Source: an uncultured Victivallales bacterium
Lineage (GTDB): Bacteria > Verrucomicrobiota > Lentisphaeria > Victivallales > UBA1829
Length of the DNA: 64,000 nt
Reading direction: 5' to 3'
Assembly: GCA_944390735.1 (NCBI GenBank)
Contig: CALXRL010000093.1
Span: 1 to 64,000 of the forward strand
A program made the position numbers and the translations under genes. The notes beneath the pieces are model-generated. The model was not told the DNA's origin. It searched no databases and saw only the letters and a program-made list of their open reading frames with translations. This document shows, in pieces, positions 45,119 through 49,404 of this stretch; position 1 is the first letter of the stretch; every line of letters begins with the position of its first letter.

Positions 45119-46495
45119 ATGGCAGAGAAATGTGGGCTGGAGCTTACGGGCGGAGAAAAGAACTCCGACTATATGTCCCGCTTGGAACACAGGGAATCCA
45201 ACGCGAGAACATATTCAAGAAAATTCCCGTTTTCCCTGAAACGGGCAAAAGGGTGCCGAATTGAGGACGTGGAAGGCAACCGGTATCTGGACTTCCTTTG
45301 CGGAGCCGGTTCGCTCGCCCTGGGACACAACGATCCCGAAGTCAATGCGGCAATGATCGACATGCTGACATCCGAAGCGCCGCTGCATACGCTGGACCTG
45401 ATGACGCCGGTCAAGGACCGCTTCATTCAGAGGCTGCTGAATCTGCTGCCGGGAGAACTGCGCGATCATTCCAGGATCCAGTTCTGCAGTCCCTCGGGAA
45501 CGGATGCGGTGGATGCGGCGATCAAGCTGTGCAAAACCGCAACGGGGCGCTCCTCCATCGTTGCCTTTACGGGGGCCTATCACGGAATGGGTCACGGGGC
45601 GCTCTCCCTGACGGGCAATCTGAATGCGAAATCCAAAGTCAACGGGCTGATGCCCGATGCGCATTTCTTTCCGTATCCCTACTCCTACCGCTGTCCGTTC
45701 GGACTCGGAGGCGAGGCGGGAACCGATGCCGCATGCGCCTATTTCGAACGGGTCCTGAAGGATCCGGAAAGCGGAATCACAAAACCGGCGGCGGTCATTA
45801 TTGAACCGATTCAGGGAGAAGGCGGAGTCATTCCCGCGCCGGTCAAGTTCCTTCAGACGGTCCGGCGGGTCACGCGCGAACTGGAGATCCCGATGATCGT
45901 CGACGAAATCCAGTGCGGATGCGGTCGTTCCGGGCGCTTCTTCGCCTTCGAATACGCCGACATTGTGCCGGATGTGGTGCTGATCTCCAAAGCCATCGGC
46001 GGTTCCCAGCCGCTTTCCGTGGTGGTGTATCATGAGAAACTTGATGTCTGGAAGCCGGGCGCCCATGCGGGAACCTTCCGCGGCAACCAGCTCGCCATGA
46101 GGGCGGGAATGGTGGTCATGGAACGGGTTGCAAAACCCGAATTCCTGAAAGAGGTCGCGGAAAAGGGAGAACTCATTGTCAGCCGTCTGAAGGCGCTGAA
46201 GGAAAAGGTTTCGATTATCGGGGACATCCGTGGAAAAGGACTGATGATCGGGTGCGAATTCGTGAATCCGAAAGCGACTCCCGATTCTCTGGGTGCGCTT
46301 CCGCCGGATGGCGACCTCGCAGCGCTGATCCAGCACAAGTGCTTCCTGAACAAGCTGGTGATCGAACGCGGAGGACGCAACGGCGCGGTGCTGCGCTGTC
46401 TGGTGGCCCTGAACGTGACACGGGAAGAAATCGAAGAGATGCTCTCGATTCTGGAGCGCGTGGTTCTTGAGGTCAATGCCGATGCCGTCCGCTGA
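45119..46495 (+). CDS. dat: Diaminobutyrate-2-oxoglutarate aminotransferase
   Basis: A 458-residue class III PLP aminotransferase that makes L-2,4-diaminobutyrate from aspartate semialdehyde with glutamate as donor. Motifs: FLCGAGSLALGHNDPEV, FCSPSGTDAVDAAIKL, FTGAYHGMGHGALSLTGN (core AYHGMGHGALSLTG), IVDEIQCGCGRSGRFFAFE, and the PLP lysine in VLISKAIGGSQPL (near 292). GAGG precedes ATG 45119. The decarboxylase gene downstream overlaps its end by 14 bp, which fixes the pathway better than the sequence alone. EctB-type ectoine enzyme is the alternative, but no ectA or ectC is present. Confidence 0.9.
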   Translation: MAEKCGLELTGGEKNSDYMSRLEHRESNARTYSRKFPFSLKRAKGCRIEDVEGNRYLDFLCGAGSLALGHNDPEVNAAMIDMLTSEAPLHTLDLMTPVKDRFIQRLLNLLPGELRDHSRIQFCSPSGTDAVDAAIKLCKTATGRSSIVAFTGAYHGMGHGALSLTGNLNAKSKVNGLMPDAHFFPYPYSYRCPFGLGGEAGTDAACAYFERVLKDPESGITKPAAVIIEPIQGEGGVIPAPVKFLQTVRRVTRELEIPMIVDEIQCGCGRSGRFFAFEYADIVPDVVLISKAIGGSQPLSVVVYHEKLDVWKPGAHAGTFRGNQLAMRAGMVVMERVAKPEFLKEVAEKGELIVSRLKALKEKVSIIGDIRGKGLMIGCEFVNPKATPDSLGALPPDGDLAALIQHKCFLNKLVIERGGRNGAVLRCLVALNVTREEIEEMLSILERVVLEVNADAVR

Positions 46496-47930
46496 ACTGC
46501 TTCTGACCGACCGGAAGGCCGATCAGGAGGAATTCCGCCGGCAGATTCTTGCCGGGGTCGACGCGGTTCTGAAAGCGATGAACACGTCCAAAGCCTACGC
46601 GGGAATGCTGCCGCGCGATCTGGAGCGGTTCCTTCATGAGGAGGTGCTGCTTCCGGAACACGGACTGGGATTCGACGAAGTTCTCCGGCGCACGGAGGAG
46701 AAGATCCTGCCGAACATGCTTCATCCCTCCTCGCAGACCTATATGGCGCATCTGCACAGTCCGGTTCTGCTGGAAAGCATTGTGGCGGAATTGATTATTG
46801 CGGTATTCAACCAGTCGATGGATTCCTGGGACCAGTCTCCGGCGGCGACGGAGATTGAGGTGGATACGATCCGTCATCTCTGCCGTCTGTACGGATTCGG
46901 CGAGGAGGCGGATGGAGTCTTCACTTCCGGCGGATCGCAATCGAACCTGACGGCTCTTCTCTTGGCGCGCGACCGCTTCTGCCGGGAAAAACTGACCTGG
47001 GATGTGCAGAAACACGGTCTGCCGGAACAATATCGGAAACTGCGGCTTTACACGTCGGAAATCTCGCATTTCTCTATGGAGAAAAGCGCGCATCTTCTGG
47101 GACTTGGCTATGAGGCCGTGGTAAAAGTTCCGGTCGATGCGGCTCAGAAAATGGATGTCGGGGAACTGACTCGTCTTGTGGAGGAGGATGTTCGTCGCGG
47201 CAATCTTCCCTTCTGCGTCGTGGCGACGGAAGGAACAACGGATTACGGAAGCATTGATCCGGTTCCGGCCATTCGCAAGGTCTGTGACCGCTTCGGGATG
47301 CTTCTGCATGCGGATGCGGCCTATGGAAGCGGAGTCATTCTTTCCGGAAAGTATGCCGGCAGAGTGGCGGGGCTTTCGCTCTGTGACTCGCTGACGGTTG
47401 ATTTCCATAAAATGTTCCTTCTTCCGATCAGCTGCAGTGCGATTCTTCTGAAGAATGGAAAGGACTTCCGCCCGCTCGAATATCATGCCGATTATCTGAA
47501 CCGCGAGGAGGATGAGGAGGATGGATATACCAATCTGGTTGGCAAATCCATTCAGACGACCCGGAGGTTCGATGCGCTGAAGGTCTGGATCTCCTTCCAG
47601 GTTCGCGGAAAAGACGGATGGGACAAGCTCATTTCCAGCGGGATTGAAAATGCGGCCTATCTCCATGAACGACTCGTTGCTTCTCCGGATTTTGAAACGA
47701 CGACTCTTCCGGAAATTACATCGGTGGTTTTCCGCGTCCGGGATACCGATGAAGTGAACAGAAAGATCCGGCGGGCGTTGATTCATCAATGCGGAATCGT
47801 CATCGGCCAGACCGTCTTTCAGGGACATGTCTGTCTGAAATGCACCCTTCTGAATCCGGAACTCACACATGAAACTCTGGACAAGCTCCTTGCTCAGATT
47901 CTCATTCTGCGGGATCAGGTGAAACAGTAA
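46482..47930 (+). CDS. ddc: L-2,4-diaminobutyrate decarboxylase
   Basis: A 482-residue group II PLP decarboxylase. Features: HPSSQTYMAHLHSPVL near 85, DQSPAATEIE, FTSGGSQSNLTALLLARD (near 145), HADAAYGSG, and the PLP lysine in LTVDFHKMFLLPISC (near 307). The start at 46482 (MPSAELL) is chosen because GAGG lies 9 bp upstream within dat; ATG 46476 is closer to it. It would convert diaminobutyrate to 1,3-diaminopropane and CO2. Overlap with dat indicates translational coupling. The product can be a polyamine or a precursor of norspermidine. Confidence 0.92.
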   Translation: MPSAELLLTDRKADQEEFRRQILAGVDAVLKAMNTSKAYAGMLPRDLERFLHEEVLLPEHGLGFDEVLRRTEEKILPNMLHPSSQTYMAHLHSPVLLESIVAELIIAVFNQSMDSWDQSPAATEIEVDTIRHLCRLYGFGEEADGVFTSGGSQSNLTALLLARDRFCREKLTWDVQKHGLPEQYRKLRLYTSEISHFSMEKSAHLLGLGYEAVVKVPVDAAQKMDVGELTRLVEEDVRRGNLPFCVVATEGTTDYGSIDPVPAIRKVCDRFGMLLHADAAYGSGVILSGKYAGRVAGLSLCDSLTVDFHKMFLLPISCSAILLKNGKDFRPLEYHADYLNREEDEEDGYTNLVGKSIQTTRRFDALKVWISFQVRGKDGWDKLISSGIENAAYLHERLVASPDFETTTLPEITSVVFRVRDTDEVNRKIRRALIHQCGIVIGQTVFQGHVCLKCTLLNPELTHETLDKLLAQILILRDQVKQ

Positions 47931-47935
47931 ATTCC

Positions 47936-48185
47936 GTGTTGGCAATCATCCGGATTGGGGAGAAGGCTTTCTTTTACGGAAAAATGCAACGCATTTTTCT
48001 CGGGTCAAGGGCAGAGTGCCCTTGTCGCGGTCCAGCGGCGAGACGCTGGCCGTGCAGCGCACGGAACTTCTTCTTTCTATAAAAAATGCGAGGGACGAAA
48101 ACCGCTTTGAAAAGCGGTTCTTCTCCCCTCGCGCTCCTCTCTTTCCCTAAACTTTTGACGCCTTTGCAACAATGCGCAAAGGCTC
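47936..48185. repeat. Hairpin-rich intergenic repeat, copy A with a four-hairpin insertion
   Basis: A non-coding unit. Left arm 47936-47987 and right arm 48086-48185 match copy B. Between them about 98 bp is inserted, and AAAAATGC occurs at both edges (47980-47987 and 48082-48089). At and in the insertion four short perfect hairpins follow one another: AAAAATGC/GCATTTTT (47980-47998), CAAGGGCA/TGCCCTTG (48006-48024), CCAGCG/CGCTGG (48032-48049), CCGTGC/GCACGG (48050-48064). The right arm has two more (AACCGCTTT/AAAGCGGTT inside GCGAGG/CCTCGC; CCTTTGC/GCAAAGG). Confidence 0.85.
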
Positions 48186-48192
48186 CCACTTC

Positions 48193-48340
48193 GTGTTGGC
48201 GATCATCCGGATTGGGGAGAAGGCTTTCTTTTACGGAAAAATGCGAGGAACGAAAACCGCTTTGAAAAGCGGTTCTTCTCCCCTCGCGCTCCCCTCTTTC
48301 CCTAAACTTTCGACGCCTTTGCAACAATACGCAAAGGCTC
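48193..48340. repeat. Hairpin-rich intergenic repeat, copy B without the insertion
   Basis: A 148-bp direct repeat of copy A, 7 bp after it. The 52-bp left arm differs at 1 base and the 100-bp right arm at 4. It ends exactly at the stop codon (48341) of the convergent hydrolase gene. The high identity points to a recent duplication, or recent loss/gain of the insertion. Confidence 0.85.
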
Positions 48341-49333
48341 TCAGAGGAAACGTTCCATCGCGTTCCATGCAATATCGGCATAGAAACGATGTTCCCCATC
48401 CCCGATAACATGAACGCAGTTGTCTTCTTTTCCAGCGGCTTTATAGATCCGGCGCAGCCGTTCGAACTGACGATTCGCCGCGTCAATCGGAAATATCGGA
48501 TCGAAACGACCATTGACAATGACCATCGGTTTCGGCGCGGCCAGACCGACCACATCCGCACTCTCGCCGTACAGCAGAAGCCCCGGCACAAAATTGCAGA
48601 TGCAGTGATACATGGAACCGATGCTGTCATGAAATGAGGAGAAACTGCAGGACGGCATCACATGAGTAATCCGGTCAAGCAGCGCGCCGGCAAACATGGC
48701 GGTAGTGCCGCCTCCGGAATTTCCCATGATTCCCAGCACATGAAGATCCAGTTCCGGACGATTGGAAAGAAGATCAATGACCCGGTCCACATCGTAAATT
48801 CTTGCCGCAAGCATGGTTCGGTTGTACAGCAGCATGGCGGTGGAGGGTTCATAACAGGAAGGAGCACGTTCCGGAGAGGTCCCCCGTTCCCCCATGGCCC
48901 GCTGCTCCAGACAGACTGCGGCAAGACCACGCTTCATGCAGGCAATGGCGAAATCGCGGTCGCCTTCCGTTTTTTTCAGAGTGATCTCATCCATCCACTC
49001 CACAGCGATCGAATTGTGCATTCCGGTGGAGTGCCCCTGAAGACAGAGAAAGGTCCGATACGGTTTTTCAGCGTGTTTCGGAAGACACAGATATGCGAAC
49101 GCCGTCTCTCCCGGTTCCGTCTCAAAGCGCAGTTTCTCGATGGTTCCGAGATCATTTTCCCGCATCCAGAGGGTTTCCGGAACAATCGGGCGCCGAGGCA
49201 GAGCAAGCCAGTGATTGAGTCCGAGTGTTTTCACAAGGGCGGGTTTTGCCGCTTTTTTCCACTCCTCGAAGGAGGAATACTGTTCAAAGGCGTAACGCGG
49301 TTCATCTGCAATCTGCTCCTGGGACGCAACCAT
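48341..49333 (-). CDS. Alpha/beta hydrolase, dienelactone/acetylxylan-esterase-like
   Basis: A 330-residue alpha/beta hydrolase. The oxyanion/strand segment is FLCLQGHSTGMHNS near 95. The nucleophile elbow is LGIMGNSGGGTTAMFAG (Ser near 205). The acid is in VNGRFDPIFPID and the His in VIGDGEHRFYAD near the end. No signal peptide. The start at 49333 (MVASQEQ) has AAAGGA 10 bp upstream; a TTG at 49372 is less likely. It resembles large-substrate esterases of carbohydrate loci; substrate unknown. Flanked by the repeat element and a divergent regulator. Confidence 0.82.
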   Translation of the reverse strand: MVASQEQIADEPRYAFEQYSSFEEWKKAAKPALVKTLGLNHWLALPRRPIVPETLWMRENDLGTIEKLRFETEPGETAFAYLCLPKHAEKPYRTFLCLQGHSTGMHNSIAVEWMDEITLKKTEGDRDFAIACMKRGLAAVCLEQRAMGERGTSPERAPSCYEPSTAMLLYNRTMLAARIYDVDRVIDLLSNRPELDLHVLGIMGNSGGGTTAMFAGALLDRITHVMPSCSFSSFHDSIGSMYHCICNFVPGLLLYGESADVVGLAAPKPMVIVNGRFDPIFPIDAANRQFERLRRIYKAAGKEDNCVHVIGDGEHRFYADIAWNAMERFL

Positions 49334-49404
49334 GATTAGAGGAATCCTTTCGTTGATATGATCCGCGGACAATGACCGAACTCCGGCCGTTCGCGTTGAA
49401 AAAT

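Follow-up and report, generated by a model that had tools for sequence, protein, structure and literature searches.

A modular, dispersed intergenic DNA element of Victivallales that joins a chain of four hairpins to a purine-motif triplex hairpin motif

A hairpin-rich repeat between two convergent genes is best explained, with a probability of about 0.6, as a locus of a dispersed intergenic DNA element with a modular build. Its normal unit would be AB, consisting of module A, a chain of four hairpins, followed by module B, a putative purine-motif intrastrand triplex hairpin with a terminal hairpin. At the locus described here, a unit composed of a spacer and both modules (S-A-B) would have been duplicated in tandem, and a deletion of 102 bp between flanking copies of AAAAATGC, probably through slippage on hairpin-rich DNA, would then have removed A from the second unit. 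The modules would be maintained as DNA secondary structures. Composites such as A-B-S-A-B would be copied between gene ends by a non-Y1 route, which may be transposition in trans or copying by template switch or gene conversion. Between convergent genes the hairpins could serve as two-way transcription terminators, so that hosts might tolerate or recruit the elements in place of older terminators. The observations behind this explanation are the sequence and its module structure, the dispersal of the modules, the variation in copy number from site to site, the covariation of the stems and of the third strand, and the bias towards the 3' ends of genes. All of them come from metagenome-assembled or draft genomes. 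The window, i.e., the whole stretch of DNA that was analysed, comprises 64,000 nucleotides from an uncultured Victivallales bacterium.

The repeat region consists of tandem units of 254 bp and 152 bp, which differ in length by 102 bp. Two pairs of direct repeats were found, 47935-47987 with 48192-48244 (98% identity) and 48071-48188 with 48226-48343 (92% identity); the members of these pairs start 257 and 155 bp apart, so the extra segment measures 102 bp. The shared unit of 152 bp thus occupies 47935-48188, where it carries the extra segment, and 48192-48343. The sequence-only reading had described two nearly identical units of 148 bp, the first with 98 additional bp; the arrangement between convergent genes, the extra piece and its AAAAATGC edges were recovered, and the sizes were revised to 152 and 102 bp. 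Copies of AAAAATGC lie at 47980, 48082 and 48237, and the first two bound the extra 102 bp. Hairpins H1-H4 of the extra piece (47979-48064) and the two further hairpins of each unit, one long and one short, were all located (Table 1). As had also been stated, no believable open reading frame lies inside the repeat region. The left flanking gene codes for a Pyridoxal_deC protein (+ strand, end at 47930), and the right one for an alpha/beta-hydrolase-like protein (48341-49372, - strand). At 45119-47930, a diaminobutyrate transaminase-like gene (TIGR00709) overlaps the PLP decarboxylase gene left of the repeat, whose best match, below that model's cut-off, is L-2,4-diaminobutyrate decarboxylase. 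The folding energy of the repeat region corresponds to a z-score of -7.2, and none of 100 shuffles was as stable. Rfam gave no match to the region at gathering scores, and the hits at relaxed E-values were sub-threshold noise.

Table 1. Features of the repeat locus (positions in the window)
Feature	Position	Strand	Description or basis
Spacer S, first copy	47935..47977	+	CGTGTTGGC...TTTTAC; C20 and C69 have a homologous spacer between their AB units
Module A, chain of four hairpins (insertion in the sequence-only reading)	47979..48068	+	Own-genome copies; covariance model R1
Module A, H1	47979..47999	+	GAAAAATGC...GCATTTTTC; 5' arm contains the AAAAATGC direct repeat
Module A, H2	48006..48024	+	CAAGGGC-AGAGT-GCCCTTG; loop hypervariable
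Module A, H3	48032..48049	+	CCAGCG-GCGAGA-CGCTGG; most conserved part; preceded by linker TCGCGGT
Module A, H4	48050..48064	+	CCGTGC-AGC-GCACGG; abuts H3
Module B, first copy	48085..48185	+	Model R2, 117 bits
Module B long hairpin, first copy	48088..48132	-	Purine/pyrimidine stem of the triplex motif on the - strand
Module B third strand, first copy	48134..48147	-	GGGAAAGAGAGGAG; mirror repeat of the stem purine arm across a 3-nt loop
Module B terminal hairpin, first copy	48160..48183	+	GCCTTTGC...GCAAAGGC; sequence changes between genera
Spacer S, second copy	48192..48234	+	Repeat comparison with first copy
AAAAATGC, putative scar of module A deletion	48237..48244	+	Compare 47980-47987 and 48082-48089
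Module B, second copy	48240..48340	+	Long hairpin 48243-48287, third strand 48289-48302, terminal hairpin 48315-48338

Sequence searches of the window's own genome (4.29 Mb, 100 contigs) revealed 31 copies of module A and about 26 copies of module B. Covariance model R1, which was built from 23 own-genome copies of module A, gave 34 matches in this genome and also picked up relatives in genus g3 and elsewhere across the order. Several contigs end within or beside A or B copies (L012, L018, L011, L025, L008), so the counts are probably underestimates. The copies form about 28 clusters, which contain A alone, B alone, AB, ABAB, AAB or BB. Where the two modules stand together, they share a strand and A comes first, with a few bases between them and always head to tail. 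At C62, C55, C15, C6 and C74, module A stands without a B, and at C22, C27, C30 and C18, B stands without an A, which agrees with the earlier suggestion that the extra piece is a separate module. Single modules as well as AB and ABAB arrangements were found across four congeneric species, and genomes of this genus hold 27-46 copies of module A each. In genus g3, three of four species carry 60-71 copies of A and essentially no B. Within the phylum, the module A family was detected in 24 of 289 sampled genomes, all of the same order as the window, and the records with an exact module A core were named Victivallales or Lentisphaeria. The unit and the extra piece, each searched for in the genome and its relatives, are therefore clearly not confined to this locus, and the proposal of an element of the lineage is supported, as a dispersed one, for both modules, genome-wide and in congeners. 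A pattern search outside the lineage gave a match in a Propionibacterium MAG (L101); its model score was poor, and chance or a coding sequence appears to account for it. Exact cores of module A and of a B relative were not found in viral contigs, and a search of the literature on repeats in Victivallis or Lentisphaera found nothing relevant.

Model R1 also identified paralogues of module A in the own genome, designated module C, with the layout CAGGTCCGTGACCTG-CTTCGGTC-CAGCTGAATAAGCTGG-T-CGCCC...GGGCG-AAA. Module C is a second hairpin-chain subfamily, often inverted and facing module A in the manner of BIME units (L040 1674-1869, L043 1338-1412, L044 1224-1433, L049 1810-2012 and L051 1605-1857). 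A minisatellite made of TGCGAAGCACGAAATCTTATTA repeats, a single hairpin that copies the H4 end of module A, lies at L049 1716-1800 and L044 1460-1510, and it looks like a local slippage amplification of the last module A hairpin. At L036 1250-1480, CCGCTGCGCGG hairpins, each array member with T-runs after it, lie beside a lone copy of A.

The stems of module A are paired almost without exception (97.7% of the stem cells in 103 aligned matches), and both partners vary in 26 of the 28 pairs. One pair of the H2 stem occurs as GC, AT, TA and CG. Double-changed cells numbered 391, compared with 73 in shuffles and 15-66 in slid controls, and in a set weighted to other genera there were 283 compared with 73.5 in shuffles; these are counts of cells, not of independent events, in a model-fitted alignment, and the effect size is thus indicative only.

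The core of module B, read on the - strand, consists of the third strand GGGAAAGAGGGGAG, CGC, the purine strand of the stem GAGGGGAGAAG, an inner hairpin and the pyrimidine strand. It has the sequence features of the purine motif (a mirror third strand, a short loop, third-strand G at stem G, and third-strand A or T at stem A), and by this sequence definition module B is an intrastrand DNA triplex motif, which may form a triplex in the cell. Opposite stem G, the third strand has G in 59 cases, A in 8 and T in 0; opposite stem A, it has A in 40, T in 7, G in 5 and C in 1. All seven third-strand T residues are opposite stem A, as the purine-motif rules allow. In B relatives from other genera, whose stems differ, the mirror relation between stem and upstream strand is nonetheless preserved. 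The match across lineages was 119 of 168, compared with a permuted mean of 94 and a maximum of 118 in 100,000 permutations (p about 1e-5), with lineage boundaries set by eye and shared ancestry left in by the permutation; between own-genome copies it was 167 compared with 150 (p 5e-5). Copies within a genus share the terminal hairpin of B, which is replaced between genera. In the triplex modules of other genera (L138, L139, L141, L142, L144, L145, L147), we observed that the core is kept and the terminal hairpin is wholly different, being alike among the copies examined from one genus.

The module content of orthologous sites turned out to be variable. At the window site, G000 has AB followed by B, G003 has a single AB, and the roughly 80 bp in G002 contain just a B-like hairpin. 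Seven further orthologous sites were compared; the content was different or decayed at several of them and unchanged at C7 and C77b. The C20 site holds AB or ABAB, depending on the genome. At C84a, we found A in G002, a decayed A in G003 and ABAB in G000. The C31 site contains B, BAB or AAB (AAB in G000); in G003, the right gene has a terminator-like hairpin of its own after B, and G002 has AB at that place. The two genes that flank the ABAB array of C84b (L016, L217, L218, L219, L220) are apart in G002 and G003, each beside its own AB, which suggests a rearrangement with breakpoints at the repeats. At the boundaries of the seven sites we saw no clean empty site or target-site duplication, and no shared terminal inverted repeat, a hallmark of MITEs, was recognised by eye. 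The spacers between AB units are alike across loci (92% identity between C20 and C69, 84% between C84a and C84b), which is consistent with the copying of whole composites.

Y1/RAYT transposase (PF01797) was absent from G000 (92% complete), G002 and G025, which contain 27-71 copies of A, and G056 and G059 have 17-20 Y1 matches and no module A. A driver that is missing from element-rich genomes and abundant in element-free ones was rejected, and, as far as draft assemblies allow, Y1/RAYT is excluded as the resident driver in these three genomes rich in the element. Among 12 Y1 loci, one has a degenerate A-like copy nearby; it lies in G041 (L251 620-710), where the IS200-like Y1 transposase gene is about 250 bp away. 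The mobility proposed in the sequence-only reading is retained as probable from the variation in copy number and the copied composites, with neither a clean empty site nor an enzyme found; the mechanism of copying may be any of those named above.

The elements are located mainly downstream of genes. Using gene calls from a simple codon-usage script rather than a full gene finder, we counted 14 convergent, 9 tandem and 1 divergent settings for the own-genome clusters, and 17, 15 and 1, respectively, in related contigs; the background in the window is 7 convergent and 8 divergent gene pairs. Between convergent genes, the inner hairpin of B is preceded by an A-rich and followed by a T-rich stretch on both strands. 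A looser terminator scan, run without a matched control, showed tails on both strands in most copies. The pattern-based terminator scan of the window gave 1 hit compared with 1.2 expected from shuffles, which is no better than chance, and it was set aside as evidence of function. Conservation of the T-rich tail after the long hairpin of B does not extend to other genera. Convergent sites with the element often have no other terminator, at C31 the AB of G002 takes the position of the terminator-like hairpin of G003, and the elements may take over transcription termination at gene ends.

The history of the locus can be read in two ways. In the sequence-only reading, module A is an insertion gained by the first unit and AAAAATGC is its target duplication, as the presence of AAAAATGC on both sides of the extra 102 bp and the solitary copies of A at other loci would allow. 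However, AB occurs in equal order and spacing at many other loci, the G003 orthologue is a single AB, the B copies of the window are 95-97% identical to those of other AB loci, and the left AAAAATGC is the first arm of module A's own H1. We consider such an insertion very improbable. Most simply, module A is the part lost from the second unit, because AB is standard at many loci and G003 has a single AB at this site. The ancestor would have been S-A-B S-A-B, since the spacer of the window (C93) is related to those between the AB units of C20 and C69 (71-73% identity; 73% with C20). The deletion is deduced from the arrangement, its mechanism is likewise presumptive, and no intermediate between S-A-B S-A-B and the window arrangement was observed.

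A different question is what kind of constraint maintains the structures. Strong folding, strong covariation and placement downstream of genes would also suit RNA elements, such as 3'-UTR stabilisers or structured small RNAs, with stems kept in the transcript. In an RNA under selection, G-U is expected to be favoured on one strand. Among 2574 cells of module A, however, G-T and A-C were equally rare (26 and 24; 22 and 23 in a second tally), and the constraint therefore looks DNA-level. Three tRNAs from the same genomes, which had 3 G-U and 0 A-C, are too small a control to calibrate this comparison. The third strand of module B obeys the rules of the DNA purine-motif triplex, and Rfam gave no match. 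The RNA-level role raised earlier is accordingly not favoured and appears improbable, and the mismatches point to a stem constraint that acts on DNA rather than RNA. It is more plausible, though still doubtful, that the elements are purely selfish or neutral structured DNA, similar to REPINs or MITEs, without a role in termination. Their copies turn over fast among congeners, no shared gene function other than the 3'-end bias was noticed, and a neutral or parasitic repeat purged elsewhere would show the same bias; pneumococcal repeats with a like convergent bias have been read as parasitism (PMC3049150). On the other side, perfect stems and a covarying third strand are kept across genera, which implies a structure-dependent process, possibly the copying itself.

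The preferred explanation, a DNA-level modular element, joins in one element BIME- or BOX-style mosaic repeats and intrastrand DNA triplexes, which are usually treated apart. The coevolving third strand provides comparative evidence for a constraint on triplex formation and not on the hairpin alone, a point that experiments with the motif from E. coli had not settled. In other repeat families, DNA-level and RNA-level selection on hairpins could be distinguished simply by checking whether the stems covary without a G-U bias. Only tentatively would we go further and regard module A as a new class of DNA-level element. It would be a fixed four-hairpin chain with constant linkers (H2-yCGyGRTC-H3-T-H4-AAAT), whose stems are freely rewritten across the order yet perfect. 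An undiscovered enzyme would recognise the chain in its folded, single-stranded DNA form and copy it, and in one genus the chain would be coupled to a triplex module with three coevolving strands.

Among known systems, bidirectional intrinsic terminators resemble the inner B hairpin with its A-rich and T-rich flanks between convergent genes; in contrast, A/B is a repeated family with conserved extra parts and a T-tract that other genera do not conserve. Module B shares with the TM motifs, formerly BoxC-PIT (ITxF, PMC4666352), the succession of a purine third strand, a 3-nt loop, a purine stem strand, a hairpin loop and a pyrimidine strand, and both are intergenic and repeated, with rearranged surroundings. 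Module B differs in its longer stem of mixed A and G, in the inner hairpin, in a terminal hairpin that is specific to the genus, and in its link to module A in the window's genus. TM/ITxF motifs have been linked to genomic instability; for a similar motif, Holder et al. found no stable triplex in vivo, and no terminator activity is cited (PMC4666352). The text of that paper names neither Lentisphaerota nor Verrucomicrobiota.

Like BIME and REP sequences, the modules are dispersed intergenic palindromes, mostly downstream of genes, which form mosaic clusters with conserved spacers. With regard to the alternating orientation of BIME units, the picture is mixed: module A often faces C or D modules, and A and B stand head to tail throughout. 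REPs are single hairpins of 20-40 bp tagged with GTAG or CGTC (PMC3733652), whereas the present modules measure about 90-100 bp, with four hairpins in the approximately 90 bp of A, and the consensus sequences of A and B have no such tag at their ends. The association of REPs with RAYT is likewise not reproduced in G000, G002 and G025, where A is abundant without Y1. In layout, the element is close to BOX of Streptococcus pneumoniae (boxA-boxB-boxC), a composite intergenic repeat of separable structured modules in variable number, which is over-represented between convergent genes (PMC3049150). A and B are likewise separable, structured, variable in number, intergenic and biased towards convergent genes; here the modules are also independent, one of them is a triplex motif, and the likeness is one of architecture. 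The A/B element thus departs from REPs in tag, size and RAYT, but works like a BIME or BOX mosaic.
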